Shown: positions 19,780-29,977 of the stretch, in pieces
Position numbering within the stretch: position 1 is the stretch's first letter
How the letters are laid out: every line of letters begins with the position of its first letter
NCBI GenBank assembly: GCA_016932035.1
Contig: JAFGDR010000043.1
Location: forward strand, 1-58,963
DNA from: Candidatus Cloacimonadota bacterium
Lineage (GTDB): Bacteria; Cloacimonadota; Cloacimonadia; JGIOTU-2
Direction of reading: 5' to 3'
DNA: 58,963 nucleotides
Notes under the pieces: generated by a model
Seen by the model: the letters and a program-made list of their open reading frames with translations, nothing else
Database searches by the model: none
Told to the model about the DNA's origin: nothing
Translations under genes and position numbers: made by a program

Positions 19780-21312
19780 ATGATCGATAAAATTCATTAT
19801 ATATATCGTGAGTTGATCACACTCTCAAAGAAGAAAACCAATCTTCTGAAATATGTACATACGATTCACAAGTTCCTTGCTGCCGAGTTGAACGTGCGTG
19901 AATCGATCTTTGTATTTGTAATAAACGGTTATTTTTTTAAAAGTACATATAGTATTGAAAACGATGAATACTGGGATGTGCGAACGAATGAAGCTCAGGA
20001 TGAAGAACGTTTCTTACGATTAGCTGATATTGTTTTTCAGGAGATAAATTTTAATAAAGATTCAGATATACGAGTCGAGATAAGGGATGATGATGCAACA
20101 ACGGGATATATTATTGTACGTCCATTCAAGGAAAATGAAGGTCTTATCGAAATAATGGAAGAGATAAAGGATTTCTTTTTCCTGATATGTCGTTCCATAT
20201 ATCGTCAATATCAGTTGAATGAGAGAGTAAAGGAGTTGAGCTGCCTGCAGAATATCAGCAAAATTGCCGAAAAGGTCGATATAAGTATCGAGGAATTTCT
20301 TGATGAAATCGTGAACATCCTTCCTCCGGCATGGCAATATCCGTCACAGGCACAAGCTCGAATACTATTCAATGACGAGTCATTTATGACTAAAAATTAC
20401 AAGGAGAGCGAAAGATCCCTTAAAGCACCTATAGTGCTGGGAAAGGCAAAAGTTGGTTTTGTTGAAGTCAATTATCCTCAAGAAAGCACTTTTCCAGATG
20501 CTCATACTTTTTTAATAGAAGAAACGCATCTCATTCATATTATAGCACAGGAATTGAGTATTACCCTTGAGAAAAAAAAGGCAGAGAGTGAGAGCAGGCA
20601 GCTTGAAAAACAGCTCCGGCATGCAGACCGTCTGGCTACGTTGGGACAACTATCTGCAGGTATAGCACATGAGATCAATGAACCACTCGCAGGTATTCTT
20701 GGACTAGCGCAACTGATGGAGAAGAATGAAAGTCTGGATGAACAAGCGCAGTCTGATCTGGAAAATATTGTATCTGCATCCCTTCATGCACGTGATGTCG
20801 TAAAGAAATTGATGTTGTTTGCACGTCAAATGCCTTCCAGCCAGTCAGATCTGAATCTTAGCGAAGCAGTAAATAATGCAGTATTTTTCCTCGAATCACG
20901 CTGCAGAAAGAATATGGTTAAAATCATGCTTGATCTCAAAGATGGGATGCCAAGTATCAAGGCAGATTCTTCGCAAATCCACCAGGTTCTCATCAACCTG
21001 ATCGTGAATGCTCTGCAGGCAATGCCAGAGGGGGGCACTATTACGATCAGAACTTTTTATGATGACACACATGTTAGTCTTGAATGCAGTGATACAGGTA
21101 TCGGTATGAGTAAAAAAGTGCTTTCACAAATATTTAATCCCTTCTTCACTACAAAAAAGATAAATGAAGGAACCGGACTCGGTTTATCAGTTGTACACGG
21201 GATAATCTATTCTCATGGGGGTGAGATAAAAGTGAAAAGCAAACCCGGCAACGGAACAAGATTTACAATTACATTTCCATATTCGCTGGAAGTAGGCACA
21301 GATGAAAAATAA
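19780..21312 (+). CDS. soluble sensor histidine kinase with two GAF-like domains
   Basis: A 510-residue cytosolic two-component sensor; no membrane segment is visible. Residues 1-140 look like one GAF-like fold. About 145-268 is a second (LSCLQNISKI... NILPPAWQYP... FLIEETHLIHIIAQEL). The second domain is also found at the N-terminus of the 1049-aa protein at 25968. A short coiled coil leads to the kinase core: His297 in AHEINEPLAG, N box NLIVNALQAM near 405, G boxes DTGIGMS and GTGLGLSVVHGI. It resembles NtrB-type kinases. Its end overlaps the response regulator gene by 11 bases, so the two are a cognate pair. Likely signals are small metabolites or redox state, but the sequence does not say which. 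Confidence 0.92.
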   Translation: MIDKIHYIYRELITLSKKKTNLLKYVHTIHKFLAAELNVRESIFVFVINGYFFKSTYSIENDEYWDVRTNEAQDEERFLRLADIVFQEINFNKDSDIRVEIRDDDATTGYIIVRPFKENEGLIEIMEEIKDFFFLICRSIYRQYQLNERVKELSCLQNISKIAEKVDISIEEFLDEIVNILPPAWQYPSQAQARILFNDESFMTKNYKESERSLKAPIVLGKAKVGFVEVNYPQESTFPDAHTFLIEETHLIHIIAQELSITLEKKKAESESRQLEKQLRHADRLATLGQLSAGIAHEINEPLAGILGLAQLMEKNESLDEQAQSDLENIVSASLHARDVVKKLMLFARQMPSSQSDLNLSEAVNNAVFFLESRCRKNMVKIMLDLKDGMPSIKADSSQIHQVLINLIVNALQAMPEGGTITIRTFYDDTHVSLECSDTGIGMSKKVLSQIFNPFFTTKKINEGTGLGLSVVHGIIYSHGGEIKVKSKPGNGTRFTITFPYSLEVGTDEK

Positions 21313-22657
21313 AAGAATTCTTGTTTTAGATGATTACGATTTAACCCGCGATGTAATAAAGCGAAATCTAACAGCAAATGCCTATCAGATCTATACAGCA
21401 GGCAAATTTGAACTTGCGAAAGAGATACTGGAAGAGATTGAGATCGATCTCGTCATAACTGATCTTAAGATGCCGGATATAAGCGGATTGGACGTGATCA
21501 AGTATATAACAGAACATTACAAAGATATTGAGATAATCGTCATAACTGGTTATCCGACCATAACTTCTGCTGTCGATGCAGTTAAGCTTGGTGCCGATGA
21601 TTATCTGACGAAACCGTTTACTGATGTCGAGCTTCTTGCTGCTGTAAAAAAAACTTTTGAAAAACAAGAGAATAAAAGGGAATTCAATAAGGAGATTTCT
21701 GACGGATTTGGAGAAAAATTCGGGATCATAGGAACTTCAGACAAAATGCTTGAAGTGTTCAGTACTATTAAGAAGGCATCTGAGATCAATAGTACGGTTT
21801 TGATCACAGGAGAAAGTGGAACTGGTAAGGAGTTGGTAGCTCGAGCTATCCATTATGCCGGGTATCGAGCAGCTGCACCATTTGTCCCCATCAACTGCGG
21901 TGCTATTCCGGAAACACTTCTGGAAAGTGAACTTTTCGGATATGTGAAAGGAGCTTTTACTGGTGCGCATACAACACGAAATGGTTTTTTCAGAAGCGCC
22001 AACAAAGGAACGATCTTTCTCGATGAGATCTCTGAAACGTCTATGATGCTTCAGATAAAACTGCTTCGAGTGATACAGGAAAAAGAAGTATACATGGTCG
22101 GTTCTGCCGAACCTCATAAAGTTGATGTGCGGATACTTGTTGCTTCCAACAAAGACTTACATGGTCTTGTTGATCTGGGTAGATTCCGTGAAGATCTTTA
22201 CTATCGTTTGAATGTTCTTACCATAAATATCCCACCTTTACGGGAACGAGGAAGGGATATTTTCCAACTTGCGAATTATTTTGCCAACAAGTATGCAAAT
22301 GAGTTTAACAAAAAAGTACCTGTTTTCCATGATGAGGTACTAAAGACCTTTGGTAGATATAACTGGCCTGGCAATGTGCGTGAACTGGAAAATATTGTAC
22401 ACCGCCTGGTGATCATGGATGAGGACGGGAAAATATTGAAAGCCGATCTTCCGAACTATATGAAGTCACGAATAGGAAGCGGAACCGACCTTACCAGGAC
22501 GCTGCTGGAGATGGAACTTGAGTATATTAAAAATGTTCTTGAGTTTACCAATAATAATAAATCAAAAGCTGCGCAGATCCTCAATATTGATCGCAAAACA
22601 TTGAATAATAAACTTCAACAGGATGTGGAAAAAGACTTAAATAAAAGCAAAAGCTAA
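21302..22657 (+). CDS. NtrC-family sigma-54-dependent response regulator
   Basis: A 451-residue transcription activator. The receiver domain (1-125) has phospho-acceptor D54 in TDLKMPD and the conserved KPF lysine. The AAA+ domain (about 140-380) has Walker A GESGTGKE at 170-177, the sigma-54 contact loop GAFTGA at 217-222 and Walker B GTIFLDEI. The C-terminal Fis-type helix-turn-helix (about 405-448, KAAQILNIDRKTLNNKL) binds DNA. Its kinase is the overlapping upstream gene. The next gene downstream, glutamate dehydrogenase, has a clear -24/-12 promoter and an upstream palindrome, so it is the obvious target. Confidence 0.95.
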   Translation: MKNKRILVLDDYDLTRDVIKRNLTANAYQIYTAGKFELAKEILEEIEIDLVITDLKMPDISGLDVIKYITEHYKDIEIIVITGYPTITSAVDAVKLGADDYLTKPFTDVELLAAVKKTFEKQENKREFNKEISDGFGEKFGIIGTSDKMLEVFSTIKKASEINSTVLITGESGTGKELVARAIHYAGYRAAAPFVPINCGAIPETLLESELFGYVKGAFTGAHTTRNGFFRSANKGTIFLDEISETSMMLQIKLLRVIQEKEVYMVGSAEPHKVDVRILVASNKDLHGLVDLGRFREDLYYRLNVLTINIPPLRERGRDIFQLANYFANKYANEFNKKVPVFHDEVLKTFGRYNWPGNVRELENIVHRLVIMDEDGKILKADLPNYMKSRIGSGTDLTRTLLEMELEYIKNVLEFTNNNKSKAAQILNIDRKTLNNKLQQDVEKDLNKSKS

Positions 22658-22821: not shown

Positions 22822-22839
22822 TTGGCACAGCATTTGCAG
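22822..22839 (+). promoter_or_regulatory. sigma-54 (-24/-12) promoter of glutamate dehydrogenase
   Basis: TTGGCACAGCATTTGCAG matches the RpoN consensus YTGGCACGnnnnTTGCW. The invariant GG (22824-22825) and GC (22836-22837) are spaced exactly as required (12 bases from G to G). Transcription would start near 22849, about 32 bases before the ATG at 22881. Confidence 0.88.
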
Positions 22840-22880
22840 ATTGTCATCATAAAACCAAAAATATGTGCGAAGGAGAAAAG

Positions 22881-24167
22881 ATGGAAAAATCTTTCAATGC
22901 ATTCAAGATGGCACAAGATCAGTTTGATGCTGTTGCCGACAAGCTTAACCTGAATCAAGCAGCAAGGGAGCTGTTAAGAACTCCTATGCGTGAATTTCAT
23001 TTTACGATTCCTGTAAAAATGGATGATGGAACTTCAAAGGTGTTCCGTGGATTTCGTATCCAACATAACGATGCACTTGGACCATGTAAGGGTGGTATTC
23101 GTTTCCATCCTCAAGAGACTGTCGATACGGTGCGAGCGCTTTCTATGTGGATGACATGGAAAACCTCAGTCGTGGATATTCCTCTTGGTGGAGGAAAAGG
23201 TGGCGTGATCTGCGATCCTCATAACCTTTCTTTACGAGAACAGGAACAGATCTGTCGTGGCTGGATTCGTCAACTACACAGAAATGTTGGACCTCTTCGT
23301 GATATTCCCGCTCCTGATGTTATGACCAATGGACAGCACATGCTCTGGATGTTGGATGAATATGAAGCAATTATGGGCGAAAAATATCCTGGTATGATCA
23401 CCGGAAAACCAGTTGGTATGGGCGGTTCACTCGGTCGAACTGAAGCAACCGGTTATGGTGTTATCTTTACGGTTCGGGAAGCTCTCAAAGAGATGAATAT
23501 CAAGATCGAAGATACGACTGCATCTTTCCAGGGATTTGGAAATGTTTCACAATATGCAATCAAGCTCTATAACCAGCTTGGTGGTAAGACGCTCTGTATT
23601 TCCTGCTGGGATCAGCAAGACCAGAAATCTTATGCATTTTATAAGAAAAACGGTGTCGATCTCGATGAGCTTCTTGCAATAACAGACAGATTCGGCGGAG
23701 TCGATAAGAAAAAAGCAAAAGATCTTGGTTATGATGTACTTCCCGGAGAAAAATGGATTGAGGTGCAGTGTGATATTCTCGTTCCTGCTGCCATGGAAAA
23801 CCAGATCACCGGTGAAACAGTGAAGAAGATACATCCGCAGGTCAAACTCGTTGCAGAAGGTGCAAACGGTCCCACTACTCCTGAAGCAGATGAAGTTTTG
23901 AAAGCAAGCAACATCTTTATGATTCCTGACTTTCTCTGCAATGCCGGTGGTGTTACATGCAGCTATTTCGAGCAGGTTCAGTGTAATATGAACTACTTCT
24001 GGAGTAAAGACGAAGTACTCGGTAAACTCGATTATAAGATGACAACAGCGTATCATAAGGTATCCAAACTTGCAAGAGACAAAAACATTTATATGCGTGA
24101 TGCTGCATATATGATCTCTGTTGATAGAGTGGTTCGTGCCTCAATTGCAAGAGGTTGGATTTCATAA
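22881..24167 (+). CDS. gdhA: glutamate dehydrogenase (Glu/Leu/Phe/Val family)
   Basis: Interconverts glutamate and 2-oxoglutarate plus ammonia in the cytosol, so it links nitrogen and carbon metabolism. It is 428 residues, typical of the hexameric class. GPCKGGIRFHP and IPLGGGKGGV hold the substrate and catalytic lysines; a Rossmann-type coenzyme domain follows (SFQGFGNVSQYA). ATG 22881 is preceded by AAGGAG (22870-22875); the in-frame ATG at 22863 lies upstream of that site and was rejected. It is expressed from a sigma-54 promoter and probably controlled by the adjacent kinase/activator pair. Coenzyme choice (NAD or NADP) cannot be read with confidence. Confidence 0.93.
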   Translation: MEKSFNAFKMAQDQFDAVADKLNLNQAARELLRTPMREFHFTIPVKMDDGTSKVFRGFRIQHNDALGPCKGGIRFHPQETVDTVRALSMWMTWKTSVVDIPLGGGKGGVICDPHNLSLREQEQICRGWIRQLHRNVGPLRDIPAPDVMTNGQHMLWMLDEYEAIMGEKYPGMITGKPVGMGGSLGRTEATGYGVIFTVREALKEMNIKIEDTTASFQGFGNVSQYAIKLYNQLGGKTLCISCWDQQDQKSYAFYKKNGVDLDELLAITDRFGGVDKKKAKDLGYDVLPGEKWIEVQCDILVPAAMENQITGETVKKIHPQVKLVAEGANGPTTPEADEVLKASNIFMIPDFLCNAGGVTCSYFEQVQCNMNYFWSKDEVLGKLDYKMTTAYHKVSKLARDKNIYMRDAAYMISVDRVVRASIARGWIS

Positions 24168-24228: not shown

Positions 24229-25971
24229 ATGGAAAGCGGACACAAATTTGATCGCCAAACCGGATTCATGCATGATGGTTTTACCTATATAGGACGTGGA
24301 TTGCCTGGTGGTAAGGCTTCTGGATTAGCACTCGCTCAGGAAATTCTCATAAAAAACTTCCCTGAAGGAAGTATAGATGGGATGCAGGTTGATATTCCTC
24401 ACACAACAGTACTGCTCAGTGGAGTTTTTGAAGAGTTCATGAAGAACAACGATCTCTATGATATTGCGCTGTCTGATGCATCGGATGAGGATATAGCTAT
24501 AAGCTTTATACATGCGTCATTCGGTGGCGTGTATAGCGGCGACCTCTATTTCTTGATCGAGAATGTTGATAGACCGCTTGCGATCCGCTCCTCGAGTATC
24601 TGTGAAGATTCCTTGAATGAACCATTCGCAGGTGTGTATGAAACAAAAATGGTAGCTAATAATCAGACAAGTACGACTGAGAAGTACAACGCCCTGGTGA
24701 ATGCGATCAAGTATGTGTATGCATCCATGTTTTTTCAACAATCTAAAAAGTATTTCAAAACGATCAACCGTGACATCAAAGAAGAAAAAATGGCTGTAGT
24801 CATTCAGGAAGTCGTGGGTGATCAGCATGGAGAGTTCTTCTATCCCTATATTTCAGGTGTTCTCAAATCCTATAATTTTTATCCCTCAGAACAGATCGGA
24901 CCGGATGCAGGATTTGCAGCTCTTGCGTTTGGTTTGGGTAAGACGATCGTTGATGGCTCGATATGCTGGAGCTACTGCCCCCGTTATCCCCGCACTCCTC
25001 AGCCTTTCAATAATATGAGAGACCTGCTTGAGAATACGCAAAAGGAATATTGGGCTGTGAACCTTGGAACCATCAACAGTTATAATCCAGTTGCAGAAAC
25101 AGAGTATTTAGTCCAAAATTCTATATTTGATATTAAGGATCGGGACGAGTTAAGACATGTCTGTTCAACATACGATCACACGAATGACCGTCTTATCATG
25201 GGTGTTCAGAAGTATGGTGCGCCGGTTCTCGATTTTGCTCCAATTCTTCGAGCAGGAACATTACCTTTGAATAACGTAATAGAAAAAGTGATCAAAGCAT
25301 GTGAGGATGAGACAGACAGCAAGGTTGAGATCGAGTTTGCAGTATCTCTTGGATCGAAAAATACAAAACCTCGTTTTGGTTTCTTGCAACTCCGTCCTAT
25401 CAATGTCTCTCATGAAATAGTAGATCTACCTGATATTGATAACAATGTAGATGATGTCCTTCTATTATCAAAACGGGCAATGGGAAATGGGATTTATGAA
25501 GATGTATGTGACATCGTGTATATTCGACCGGATACCTTTGATGTGAAGTATTCGAGTGAGATCGCAGGTGATATCAACGAATTGAATACGCTATTCACAG
25601 CAAACAAACGAACGTACCTTTTAATTGGATTTGGACGATGGGGTACATCTGATCCATGGTGCGGAATTCCCGTGCGATGGCCTCAGATATCCAATGCAAA
25701 AGTTATTGTTGAATCAGTCCTGCCCAGTATGCAGGCAGACTTCAGCCAGGGTGCACATTTCTTTCATAATATGACTGCACATAATGTGTTCTATTTTTCT
25801 GTAGATGAAGACGAGGCAAAAAATCTTGACTGGAATTGGATTCAGCAGCAGAAGACTATTAACGAAACAAAATTTGTGAAACATGTACGGTTGAAGCATA
25901 GTCTCAAAGTGATGGTTGATGGACGTCTAAGTAAGGGTGTTATTCTCAAAAATGAGGTTGGTGCGCAATGA
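24229..25971 (+). CDS. PEP/pyruvate-binding (PEP synthase-like) protein without phosphohistidine domain
   Basis: A 580-residue cytosolic protein related to the ATP/pyruvate-binding domain of PEP synthase and pyruvate phosphate dikinase. Residues about 20-392 are that ATP-grasp-like domain: GGKASGL with K29, RSSSICED at 120-127, EPFAGVYE, and the closing IEFAV...FLQLRP near 385-390. The histidine swivel domain and the PEP-binding barrel of true PEP synthase are not visible. Instead a C-terminal module carries GFGRWGTSDPW (467-477) and QGAHFFHN with H510. The same module occurs in the following 1049-aa protein. The reaction is unknown. It lies 61 bases after gdhA and its stop overlaps the next start (ATGA). 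Confidence 0.82.
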   Translation: MESGHKFDRQTGFMHDGFTYIGRGLPGGKASGLALAQEILIKNFPEGSIDGMQVDIPHTTVLLSGVFEEFMKNNDLYDIALSDASDEDIAISFIHASFGGVYSGDLYFLIENVDRPLAIRSSSICEDSLNEPFAGVYETKMVANNQTSTTEKYNALVNAIKYVYASMFFQQSKKYFKTINRDIKEEKMAVVIQEVVGDQHGEFFYPYISGVLKSYNFYPSEQIGPDAGFAALAFGLGKTIVDGSICWSYCPRYPRTPQPFNNMRDLLENTQKEYWAVNLGTINSYNPVAETEYLVQNSIFDIKDRDELRHVCSTYDHTNDRLIMGVQKYGAPVLDFAPILRAGTLPLNNVIEKVIKACEDETDSKVEIEFAVSLGSKNTKPRFGFLQLRPINVSHEIVDLPDIDNNVDDVLLLSKRAMGNGIYEDVCDIVYIRPDTFDVKYSSEIAGDINELNTLFTANKRTYLLIGFGRWGTSDPWCGIPVRWPQISNAKVIVESVLPSMQADFSQGAHFFHNMTAHNVFYFSVDEDEAKNLDWNWIQQQKTINETKFVKHVRLKHSLKVMVDGRLSKGVILKNEVGAQ

Positions 25972-28900
25972 GCATAATCGAAGAAAATACAAACAGACTT
26001 ATTGAAAGTCTGAAAGAGCGACAGAAAGAACTCAACTGTATTCATGGCCTGGAAGGTATTTTAATCGATTTTGATTCACCCATAAAGTTAATATTTGATA
26101 AAATACTCGATAACTTACCAACTGGCTGGCAGTTTCCTGAAAAGTGCTTTGCAGAAATCGAATATGAAGACAAAGTGTACAAAAATTCCCCACATCCGGT
26201 AACTGAATATGTCCAAAAAGCTCCCATGCATAAGAATGGTAAACGATTTGGGGAAATACGTATATATTATACTGATGTCCCGCCGGAACAGCATCAGGAA
26301 CCATTTTTAAAGGAAGAATATTCACTTCTCAATACCATTGCAAGCATCCTTGCATCATATCTTGCTGTACGGTCATATAAAGAAAGTGAACCGTCAGAAC
26401 GGCATAAGGGTGAATGGAAGATCATCATAAATATGCTGCAAAAGACTGATATTAAGCTCTTTTTACGAATTGCGCGAAAACTTTTGAATTTACTCTATCA
26501 GAAAGGAGTAAAGGAAGTACAGTCCATTTATGCTTCTTTCGGTGCCACAACGAGAGACTCGGATATCGATTTGTTTCAGGAGATCAATGTTCCACTTGAG
26601 AAAAAGGATTACAGGGAAACCATCAAGCTGAGTGACAAGATCTTTGAGAGTGCTCAGCAACATTTCTCCGATGAAGAATTAATTGATTACATCCGAAAAT
26701 GGATGCAGGAAGAAAAACTAAACTTCCTGATAAGTTCCCTTGAAAGTAAGGATACAACGTTATCTGAACTCCAGGATGTTCTGTTCCATTACCACAATAA
26801 TGAGATCGAAAAGGAGAGTATTTCACCTTATTCATATATGAATGTAAAGGTTCTCCTCATTCAGAAATTATTTACAAATCAACTACAATTCATAAATGTT
26901 GCAAAGAATTACATCGAGATCGATGATTTCTATAAGGTGCTTCAGCATACGATCTTTCCGCTCAATTCTCATGGGAAGCTTGGTGGCAAAAGTACCGGTC
27001 TTTTCTTTGCAAATAATATCATTAAACGGGAACTCGGTCCTGAATTTAATAAACATTTCAAGATCCCACAAACATGGTATCTTACCTCTGATGCGATGCT
27101 TAACTTTCTTCATTACAATAACTTAGAGGAGATTGTTGAGCAGAAATACAAGGATATTGAGATCGTCCGTGCTGAGTATGGAAACATCATACAGATGTTC
27201 AAGAATTCTCATTTCCCACACGACATATCAAAGGGATTGTCTCAGCTTCTCGATAGTCTTGGAGATAAACCCATTATCGTGCGGAGTTCATCACTTCTGG
27301 AGGATAGTTTTGGTTCGGCGTTTTCCGGTAAATATAAGAGTCTTTTCCTTGCGAACCAGGGAACTAAACAGGAGCGATTGAATGCACTGCAGGATGCTAT
27401 AGCAGAGGTTTATGCATCAATCGTGGGTCCTGATCCGATCGAGTACAGAAAAGAGAGGGGATTGCTGGATTTTAAAGAGGAAATGGCAATTCTTATCCAG
27501 GAAGTCGTGGGTAAAAAATGCGGGAAATACTTCTTTCCTGCCTTTGCCGGGGTTGCTTTTTCAAATAATGAGTTCCGCTGGTCATCACGTATCAAAAGAG
27601 AAGACGGGCTTGTTCGCATGGTTCCAGGTTTAGGAACCCGCGCCGTTGATAGATTGAGCAATGATTATCCTGTTCTTGCTTCACCTGGTAATCCGAATAT
27701 CCGTGTTAATCCAACCACGGAAGAAATCCTGAAATACAGCCCCAAAAATATCGATCTGATCAATCTCGAAACCAACTCATTTGAATCCCTTCCTATCGAA
27801 GAAGTCATTTTGGAATGCAAGGATAATTTTCCTCTATTCCAACAACTATTTTCTGTGTATGAGGACAATGAACTTGTTGAAAAATCTGGATTTATGATCG
27901 ATTTTGAAAAGGCTGATCTCATTGCTACTTTTAATGGAATTATTAAAAATTCGAACTTTCTAAAAAGAATGTCATTAATTCTTGAGACATTAAAAGCAAA
28001 GCTGGGAACACCAGTGGATATTGAGTTCGCCGTGAAGGGTGAAGATTTTTATTTTCTTCAATGCCGACCGCAAAGTTTCTCGAGCACCGACGAACCGCAG
28101 CCCATTCCCCAGGATATTCCAGCAAATGATATTATTTTTACTGCGCATAAATACATCTCAAATGGTTATATTCCTGAAATATCATATATCGTGTATGTCG
28201 ATCCTGAAAAATACAGCGTCCTGAAGTCCCTCGAAGAATTGCATAAAGTAGGATACTGCGTCGGAAAGTTAAATTTGCTTCTTCCAAAAAGAAAATTCAT
28301 ACTGCTCGGTCCAGGAAGATGGGGAAGCAAAGGTGATATCAAACTTGGTGTCAATGTTACGTATTCTGATATTAACAAGACTGCAGTACTCATAGAAATA
28401 GCCAAGGAGAAAGGGAATTATGTACCAGATCTTTCCTTCGGGACGCATTTTTTTCAGGATTTAGTCGAAGCTCGTATCCGTTATATTCCTCTGTATCCTG
28501 ATGAAAAGGGCAATGTCTTTAATACAAATTTTTTCAGGTTTTCCAAAAACATCTTACCCGATCTGCTTCCAGATTTTGAAGATTTGAAAGATGGCGTGAA
28601 AGTGATCGATGTTCCTGCTGAAACAAGCGGAAAGATATTGAAGATCTTTATGAATGCTGATCTTGATGAAGCGATCGGTTATATCGGTTCTCCGGGTAAA
28701 ACACGAGGAATTGTTCCCAACGTACCTGAAAGCTTAGAAACCGGTATTGAAAATTATTGGTTCTGGCGTATGCAGGTATGTGAATTCCTGGCACAAAATA
28801 TTGAGGCGAATAAGCTTGGTGTTGAAGCAATATATGTATTCGGAAGTGTGAAAAATGCCAATGCCGGTCCAGCAAGCGATATAGACCTTTTAGTACATTT

Positions 28901-29117
28901 TCGCGGGAATAAGACACAAAAAAAGGAACTCCTTGCTTGGCTTGACGGTTGGAGCATGTGCCTTGATCATTTCAACTACCTGAAAACAGGATATAAGACT
29001 GGCGGATTGCTGGATGTGCATATTATTACTGACGAAGATATTGCAAACAAAACCAGCTTCGCGATAAAAATCGATGCAGTAACAGATACCGCGAGAAAGC
29101 TCGATATGAGAAAATGA
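25968..29117 (+). CDS. fusion: GAF-like sensor + PEP/pyruvate-binding domain + nucleotidyltransferase
   Basis: A 1049-residue protein with three recognisable parts. Residues 1-135 are a GAF-like sensor (LDNLPTGWQFP... FLKEEYSLLNTIASILA), the same domain as in the upstream histidine kinase. About 330-705 is a PEP synthase-type ATP/pyruvate-binding domain: GKLGGKSTGL at 336-345, RSSSLLED at 439-446 and DIEFAV...FLQCRPQ near 700. About 775-840 carries GPGRWGS and GTHFF, shared with the previous gene. Residues about 940-1049 form a minimal nucleotidyltransferase: GS at 959-960, SDIDLLV with D971 and D973, and probable third carboxylate D1016. No swivel histidine domain is seen. A regulator or nucleotidylating enzyme acting on PEP or nitrogen metabolism is plausible, but this is inference. 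Confidence 0.82.
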   Translation: MSIIEENTNRLIESLKERQKELNCIHGLEGILIDFDSPIKLIFDKILDNLPTGWQFPEKCFAEIEYEDKVYKNSPHPVTEYVQKAPMHKNGKRFGEIRIYYTDVPPEQHQEPFLKEEYSLLNTIASILASYLAVRSYKESEPSERHKGEWKIIINMLQKTDIKLFLRIARKLLNLLYQKGVKEVQSIYASFGATTRDSDIDLFQEINVPLEKKDYRETIKLSDKIFESAQQHFSDEELIDYIRKWMQEEKLNFLISSLESKDTTLSELQDVLFHYHNNEIEKESISPYSYMNVKVLLIQKLFTNQLQFINVAKNYIEIDDFYKVLQHTIFPLNSHGKLGGKSTGLFFANNIIKRELGPEFNKHFKIPQTWYLTSDAMLNFLHYNNLEEIVEQKYKDIEIVRAEYGNIIQMFKNSHFPHDISKGLSQLLDSLGDKPIIVRSSSLLEDSFGSAFSGKYKSLFLANQGTKQERLNALQDAIAEVYASIVGPDPIEYRKERGLLDFKEEMAILIQEVVGKKCGKYFFPAFAGVAFSNNEFRWSSRIKREDGLVRMVPGLGTRAVDRLSNDYPVLASPGNPNIRVNPTTEEILKYSPKNIDLINLETNSFESLPIEEVILECKDNFPLFQQLFSVYEDNELVEKSGFMIDFEKADLIATFNGIIKNSNFLKRMSLILETLKAKLGTPVDIEFAVKGEDFYFLQCRPQSFSSTDEPQPIPQDIPANDIIFTAHKYISNGYIPEISYIVYVDPEKYSVLKSLEELHKVGYCVGKLNLLLPKRKFILLGPGRWGSKGDIKLGVNVTYSDINKTAVLIEIAKEKGNYVPDLSFGTHFFQDLVEARIRYIPLYPDEKGNVFNTNFFRFSKNILPDLLPDFEDLKDGVKVIDVPAETSGKILKIFMNADLDEAIGYIGSPGKTRGIVPNVPESLETGIENYWFWRMQVCEFLAQNIEANKLGVEAIYVFGSVKNANAGPASDIDLLVHFRGNKTQKKELLAWLDGWSMCLDHFNYLKTGYKTGGLLDVHIITDEDIANKTSFAIKIDAVTDTARKLDMRK

Positions 29118-29977
29118 CATCCGCCTTTTTTATTAGTGATTTACACGGATCAAAAAATAAATACGAATTTCTCTTCAAAAGTATCCTGACTCACAGACCT
29201 GCAATTGTATTTTTGGGGGGTGACCTGATGGGATTTGCTTCTTCAGCAAGAAGTAGTTCAATCCCAACTGGTGAGGATTTTCTGTATGATTATTTTGCTC
29301 GCAATCTGCAGAAAATAAAGGATATTCTGGGGGATGAATATCCACAAGTTTTTGTTATACTGGGTAATGATGACCCCAAAATACACGAAGCAGCTCTCCT
29401 CGATATATCGACAACAGGTTTGTTAATCTATGCACATGAAAGAACAATTGCATTTGGAAAATACAAAGTAGTTGGATATTCATACATCCCTCCTACTCCT
29501 TTTCTCAATAAAGACTGGGAGAAATATGATGTATCCCGCTTTGTGGATGTTGGTTGCGTTTCTCCGGAAGATGGATATCGGAGTATTCCGGTCTCCATCG
29601 ATGATCTCCGTTACTATACCATAAAACGTGATTTGCACACTCTTTTTTCAGATGTTGATATGGCTCATGCAGTTTGTCTTTTCCATTCACCTCCACATGA
29701 TACAAAACTCGATCGGGCTGCACTGGATGGGATAATGATCGAGCATGCACCGGTCGATGTGCACGTTGGAAGTGTTGCGATAAAAGATTTTATACTTGAG
29801 AGAATACCCTATCTAACTCTTCATGGGCATATTCACGAATCGACTCAATTAACAGGAGTCTGGAAAGAGCGAATAGGGGAGACACTTTGTTTTCAAGGGG
29901 CTTCTAAGTCCAATGTTAATAGAATTATTCATTTCGATCTTGATGATCCGAATCATGCGGAGTTGATAGAAGAGTAG
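29114..29977 (+). CDS. calcineurin-like metallophosphoesterase
   Basis: A 287-residue cytosolic phosphoesterase. The metal-binding motifs run in order: SDLHG (8-12), GGDL near 36-39, GNDD near 95-98, FHSPPHD near 192 and HGHIHES near 236-242. The GNDD form, where many relatives have GNHE, places it outside the most common subgroup. The start overlaps the stop of the 1049-aa fusion gene (ATGA), so the two are translated together. Beside a nucleotidyltransferase it could remove what that domain adds; this is inference. The gene ends 10 bases from the convergent rsmE without a visible terminator. Confidence 0.88.
   Translation: MTSAFFISDLHGSKNKYEFLFKSILTHRPAIVFLGGDLMGFASSARSSSIPTGEDFLYDYFARNLQKIKDILGDEYPQVFVILGNDDPKIHEAALLDISTTGLLIYAHERTIAFGKYKVVGYSYIPPTPFLNKDWEKYDVSRFVDVGCVSPEDGYRSIPVSIDDLRYYTIKRDLHTLFSDVDMAHAVCLFHSPPHDTKLDRAALDGIMIEHAPVDVHVGSVAIKDFILERIPYLTLHGHIHESTQLTGVWKERIGETLCFQGASKSNVNRIIHFDLDDPNHAELIEE

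Follow-up and report, generated by a model that had tools for sequence, protein, structure and literature searches.

PPDK, PEP synthase and rifampin phosphotransferase share an ATP-binding domain (PF01326, PPDK_N) with characteristic K, R, DxE and QxR residues. In PPDK and PEP synthase, this domain is accompanied by a swivel histidine domain and a C-terminal PEP/pyruvate domain, and it is in the C-terminal barrel that the PEP/pyruvate site is located. Small nucleotidyltransferases (NTases) of the MntA/MNT antitoxin type carry GS, DxD and D residues, and one of them, the adenylyltransferase MntA, has the protein HepT as its target of modification (PMC7641770). GlnE and GlnD provide a functional parallel, namely nucleotidyl transfer in the control of a nitrogen-assimilation enzyme. 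Glutamate dehydrogenase (GDH) occupies a point where carbon metabolism and nitrogen metabolism meet. SelO, which is mitochondrial, is a kinase-like protein and not an NTase. Mammalian GDH is AMPylated and thereby inactivated by SelO (PMC12375108), a precedent for the type of mark on GDH proposed below.

The window analyzed here, i.e., the whole stretch of 58,963 nucleotides from a Candidatus Cloacimonadota bacterium (contig JAFGDR010000043.1), encodes a fusion protein of 1,049 amino acids (25968..29117; all window features given here are on the forward strand). The original prediction had described it as a three-part fusion of a GAF-like sensor, a PPDK_N-type domain and an NTase. Pfam, alignments, AlphaFold2 and Foldseek confirmed the PPDK_N and NTase parts, supported the GAF-like one and revealed two further ones that had been overlooked; the protein consists of five segments, namely, GAF, a helical region, PPDK_N, a domain termed X, and NTase. 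The GAF-like domain (residues 1-140; 25968..26387) is supported through homologues, since PF01590 matched 6 of 26 homologous N termini (best E 0.0036) and left the window protein itself unmatched. The helical region (residues 146-335; 26403..26972), defined by AlphaFold2 secondary structure, belongs to no known family, and a Pfam scan of its homologues did not return any recurring family; in Acidobacteriota it is found without GAF and NTase. The full-length AlphaFold2 model had a pLDDT of 81 and a pTM of 0.66.

The PPDK_N ATP-grasp domain (residues 337-716; 26976..28115) was matched by Pfam above the cut-off with an E of 1e-57. Its ATP-binding signatures are intact, as had been claimed: K341, R439, E445, D446, D684, E686, Q698 and R700 show no variation across the 55 full-length relatives that were aligned, and the GGK, DxE and QxR signatures align with the PPDK of the same genome. 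The RSSS motif corresponds to VRSG of that PPDK by eye, the automatic alignment having misplaced this stretch. The Foldseek matches of the model were headed by the ATP-binding domains of rifampin phosphotransferase, PEPS and PPDK (E 1e-14). The window genome also encodes a protein of ~880 amino acids (L006, contig C40) with a weak, diverged PPDK_N match.

Where PPDK and PEP synthase have the swivel histidine and C-terminal PEP/pyruvate domains, the fusion has X, GAF and NTase instead. The predicted absence of the swivel domain was corroborated, as PF00391 had no hit in the fusion; in this genome it matched only PPDK (contig C18) and one protein on contig C1, which is probably PTS enzyme I. Nor did Pfam detect the C-terminal PEP/pyruvate-binding barrel in the fusion, in which X and NTase come after PPDK_N. 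An ordinary PEP synthase is ruled out by the absent swivel domain and the unmatched barrel. The original prediction had further proposed that the protein nucleotidylates a partner in response to pyruvate/PEP status. Nucleotidylation of a partner remains the likeliest guess at what the protein does; the response to pyruvate/PEP is unsupported, because PF01326 is the ATP-binding domain, the barrel is unmatched and the swivel histidine is absent.

Domain X (residues 717-910, ~190 amino acids; 28116..28697) is common to the fusion, its 580-amino-acid neighbour and a group of paralogues with receiver-like N termini (receiver-type PPDK_N-X). It contains the motifs GRWGS-x-GD and G(T/S/A)HFF, and H827 within the latter is invariant in 71 sequences from two paralogue families. 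Modelled separately by AlphaFold2, X reached a pLDDT of 91 and a pTM of 0.90. No Pfam relative above noise was found, and Foldseek comparisons provided nothing significant, either with PDB folds (best E 0.12) or with viral models (best E 0.011), where several Mre11/SbcCD-like proteins appeared with a TM of about 0.27. A look-alike pattern, GRWG...GIPV in X and GG..SH...GIPA in the swivel domain, was the basis for considering X a diverged swivel histidine domain. This assignment is unsupported: hhalign against the swivel profile gave a probability of 0.1%, and Foldseek and PF00391 gave nothing.

The NTase domain (residues 927-1049; 28746..29114) was matched by NTP_transf_2 (PF01909) at residues 948-986 with an E of 1.4e-9, above the Pfam cut-off. 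The active-site residues are located as predicted, with G959, S960 and D1016 kept in all 55 full-length homologues and D971 and D973 each kept in 54. Loss of the aspartates was thus confined to a single relative (L086:5767-8901), which has NIK in place of the DxD motif; the genome of this relative has no match to the phosphoesterase described below. Foldseek supported the predicted fold, as the C terminus matched MntA, HEPN-MNT and 2rff NTases at probabilities of mostly 0.92-0.99, with E values of only 0.03-0.15. The domain differs from MntA/MNT in its own motif, GS(T/V)KNAxAGPxSDID, in its fusion to PPDK_N-X and in its phosphoesterase partner, and among those window genes that were scanned with Pfam no HEPN partner was detected. 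It also differs from GlnE/GlnD, to which none of the Pfam or NCBIfam matches of the fusion belonged, in being a single small NTase whose putative counterpart for removal is a separate phosphoesterase. The only PADLOC matches were to the NTase (PDC-S09) and, at a weak level, to the phosphoesterase; no defence setting was evident.

The gene neighbourhood begins with a histidine kinase (19780..21312; 510 amino acids; HisKA and HATPase_c), the GAF-like N-terminal region of which resembles that of the fusion (30% match), and an NtrC-type sigma-54 response regulator (21302..22657; Response_reg, Sigma54_activat and HTH_8). A GAF-bearing gene followed by a response regulator is also found upstream of GDH in loci L095 and L096. 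An exact match to a sigma-54 -24/-12 promoter, TGGCACAGCATTTGCA (22823..22838), precedes the GDH ORF by 40 nt, and a match is present at the same position in locus L007. Allowing up to one mismatch, the window contained 8 such sites versus 5.66 expected, which is not above chance, and an exact match preceded only 3 of 88 GDH copies; the site is therefore suggestive for the window genus only. The GDH gene (22863..24167; ELFV family, Pfam ELFV_dehydrog, GdhA_Arch-like) likely starts at ATG 22881 and not at the called ATG 22863, as suggested by the AAGGAG just before the later codon. It is followed by a paralogue of the fusion composed of PPDK_N and X (24229..25971; 580 amino acids; PF01326 E 7e-29, with X identified by alignment) that lacks GAF and NTase, by the fusion itself, and by a calcineurin-like metallophosphoesterase (MPE; 29114..29977; PF00149). 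Each neighbouring pair of the last three ORFs (24229-29977) shares a 4-nt overlap, which suggests translational coupling. In the MPE, the metal-binding motifs DxH, GD, GN(H/D), H and GHxH are present, with GND replacing GNH, and D9, H11, D37, N85, D86, H191, H239 and H241 are invariant in 42 sequences.

A scan with one genome per species yielded at least 583 relatives of the fusion, and the best 80 of these shared about 47-83% identity over most of its length. According to record titles, mostly of MAGs, the fusion is spread over at least 12 phyla, and the titles of the best 80 comprise Cloacimonadota, Zixibacteria, Krumholzibacteriota, Acidobacteriota/Aminicenantes, Calditrichota, Bacteroidota/Ignavibacteria, Gemmatimonadota, Eisenbacteria, Marinimicrobia, Myxococcales, Spirochaetes, Planctomycetes and Verrucomicrobia. 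Counting occurrences and neighbours, a check named in the original prediction, showed that, of 51 loci offering 4 kb or more of upstream sequence, 48 have GDH (>50% identity) adjoining the fusion; the GDH operon, the MPE and the PPDK_N-X paralogues had not featured in that prediction. All but one of 66 GDH copies were on the strand of the fusion, and a PPDK_N-X protein of the 580-amino-acid type was present in 35 of the 51 loci. When 60 relatives of the window genome were compared, the fusion and a GDH with 72% identity or more occurred in exactly the same 10 (p 1e-11), and among 60 genomes from the phylum to which the acidobacterial record G063 belongs, operon-type GDH was present in 15 of 17 carriers of fusion-like proteins versus none of the 43 others; the genomes compared are related, so that p-values from these tests overstate independence, and many are incomplete MAGs. 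Candidate residues specific to the operon-type GDH are H120 and Y290, from a comparison set that is small and phylogenetically confounded.

The linkage to GDH extends to proteins that lack the NTase. Proteins composed of the helical region, PPDK_N and X, with or without GAF, likewise adjoin GDH; in several GC-rich loci, GDH was located by tblastn. For the receiver-type paralogues, 23 of 40 contigs had a GDH, mostly of another type, no more than 5 kb away, with contig ends disregarded. Given that NTase-less PPDK_N-X proteins still go with GDH, the NTase is an add-on. In L003 (contig C1 of the window genome, 35767-39547), L097 and L110, receiver-type proteins of ~1000 amino acids, sometimes in tandem, adjoin a second GDH, similar to GdhA of E. 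coli, and those in L097 and L110 have a putative sensor gene and a regulator of the NtrC type as further neighbours.

The presence of the MPE, in turn, follows the NTase and not GDH. NTases without PPDK_N, either stand-alone (~128 amino acids) or as GAF-NTase (~320 amino acids), had an adjoining MPE in nine of nine loci with GDH distant, and most kept the motif GSTKNAxAGPxSDID, one being truncated by a contig end. A stand-alone NTase beside an MPE in L093 (3857-4153) is apparently broken by a frame change. The MPE was detected in 16 of 17 NTase-containing genomes versus 0 of 43 NTase-less ones among the 60 relatives of the window genome, and, for the carriers of fusion-like proteins among the 60 genomes of the G063 phylum, in 6 of the 8 that have the NTase versus 0 of the 9 that lack it. 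It was within the examined flank of the fusion in 33 of 55 loci; of 22 genomes in which the fusion has no neighbouring MPE, 12 have one elsewhere, and in 10 (L086 and nine others) none was found. An MPE elsewhere in the genome was also recorded for the relatives G008, G029 and G050. Split forms exist as well (L111/L113 and L112/L122), in which NTase and MPE lie together and PPDK_N-X is by GDH at another site; in G118 and G105, NTase and MPE form a separate divergent pair, with PPDK_N-X by GDH. The fusion thus joins two units, a GDH-linked PPDK_N-X and an MPE-linked NTase or GAF-NTase.

We favour, with slightly less than even confidence, what is also the simplest reading, namely that the fusion is part of a module for the reversible covalent control of GDH, in which PPDK_N-X acts on or with GDH, the NTase writes a mark and the MPE removes it. 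The GAF domain would sense a metabolite, and PPDK_N-X may bind GDH and/or carry out ATP-dependent phosphoryl transfer, H827 of X being a candidate phosphoryl acceptor. The NTase would place a nucleoside monophosphate on a protein, for which GDH and a PPDK_N-X partner are the likeliest candidates, and the MPE would cleave the resulting phosphodiester and restore the enzyme. Transcription of the operon would be set by the histidine kinase/NtrC pair and the sigma-54 promoter. The domains, conserved residues, linkage and co-occurrence are observed, and from them we infer the transferred nucleotide, its target, the direction of the effect, the role of H827 and the GAF ligand, which are all putative.

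The gene linkage is compatible both with a modification of GDH and with a shared pathway. GDH need not be the target of the NTase, because genomes with stand-alone NTase and MPE lack the operon-type GDH. The 10 fusion genomes in which no MPE was found and the add-on nature of the NTase also speak against the favoured reading. The NTase might instead modify PPDK_N-X, either its own part in cis or the 580-amino-acid and receiver-type paralogues in trans, and affect GDH only indirectly. Receiver-type PPDK_N-X is indeed present in all seven relatives that have stand-alone NTase and MPE without the fusion, and G118 and G105 hold an NTase separate from an NTase-less PPDK_N-X; however, receiver-type proteins are also common in NTase-less genomes, which makes the association weak, and we consider this alternative unlikely. 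About as improbable is a metabolic unit, in which the substrate activated by PPDK_N-X would be a small molecule with a link to either glutamate or 2-oxoglutarate, and NTase and MPE would make and break a nucleotidylated metabolite. The closest structural matches, the rifampin phosphotransferase-like relatives of PPDK_N, act on small molecules, and a report on SidL and 3-phosphoglycerate provides a precedent for an adenylylated metabolite (PMC13431035), but the GAF and receiver-like inputs and the two-component neighbours suggest control, and PPDK_N-X pairs with two GDH types with no other enzyme conserved nearby. That NTase and MPE are a separate MNT-like unit, acting through a second messenger or derived from a toxin-antitoxin system and fused by chance to a GDH-linked protein, would fit the MNT antitoxins as closest small structural matches and the occurrence of NTase and MPE without GDH nearby, but is very unlikely in view of the lack of HEPN matches in the scanned window genes, the retention of fused form and operon across many phyla, and an NCBIfam MntA score of 27.8 bits that is far under the cut-off of 60.

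The fusion is a large, widely conserved and unstudied bacterial enzyme with ATP-using and nucleotide-attaching domains, and, as a GDH gene almost always adjoins it, it may be an unrecognized on/off switch of GDH. That it represents an undescribed covalent control system of GDH in a dozen or more phyla, with a mark written by a PPDK-type ATP-grasp domain, the new domain X with its invariant H827 and a fused NTase and erased by a dedicated phosphoesterase, is a possibility that we regard as rather doubtful; no description of such a system was found in the freely accessible literature searched. If GDH control by the fusion is true, many little-studied bacterial phyla would regulate this enzyme through a covalent writer and eraser, reminiscent of GlnE and glutamine synthetase yet assembled from other components, one of them a domain without a recognized fold relative. 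The existence of split and fused forms makes this reading testable in vitro.
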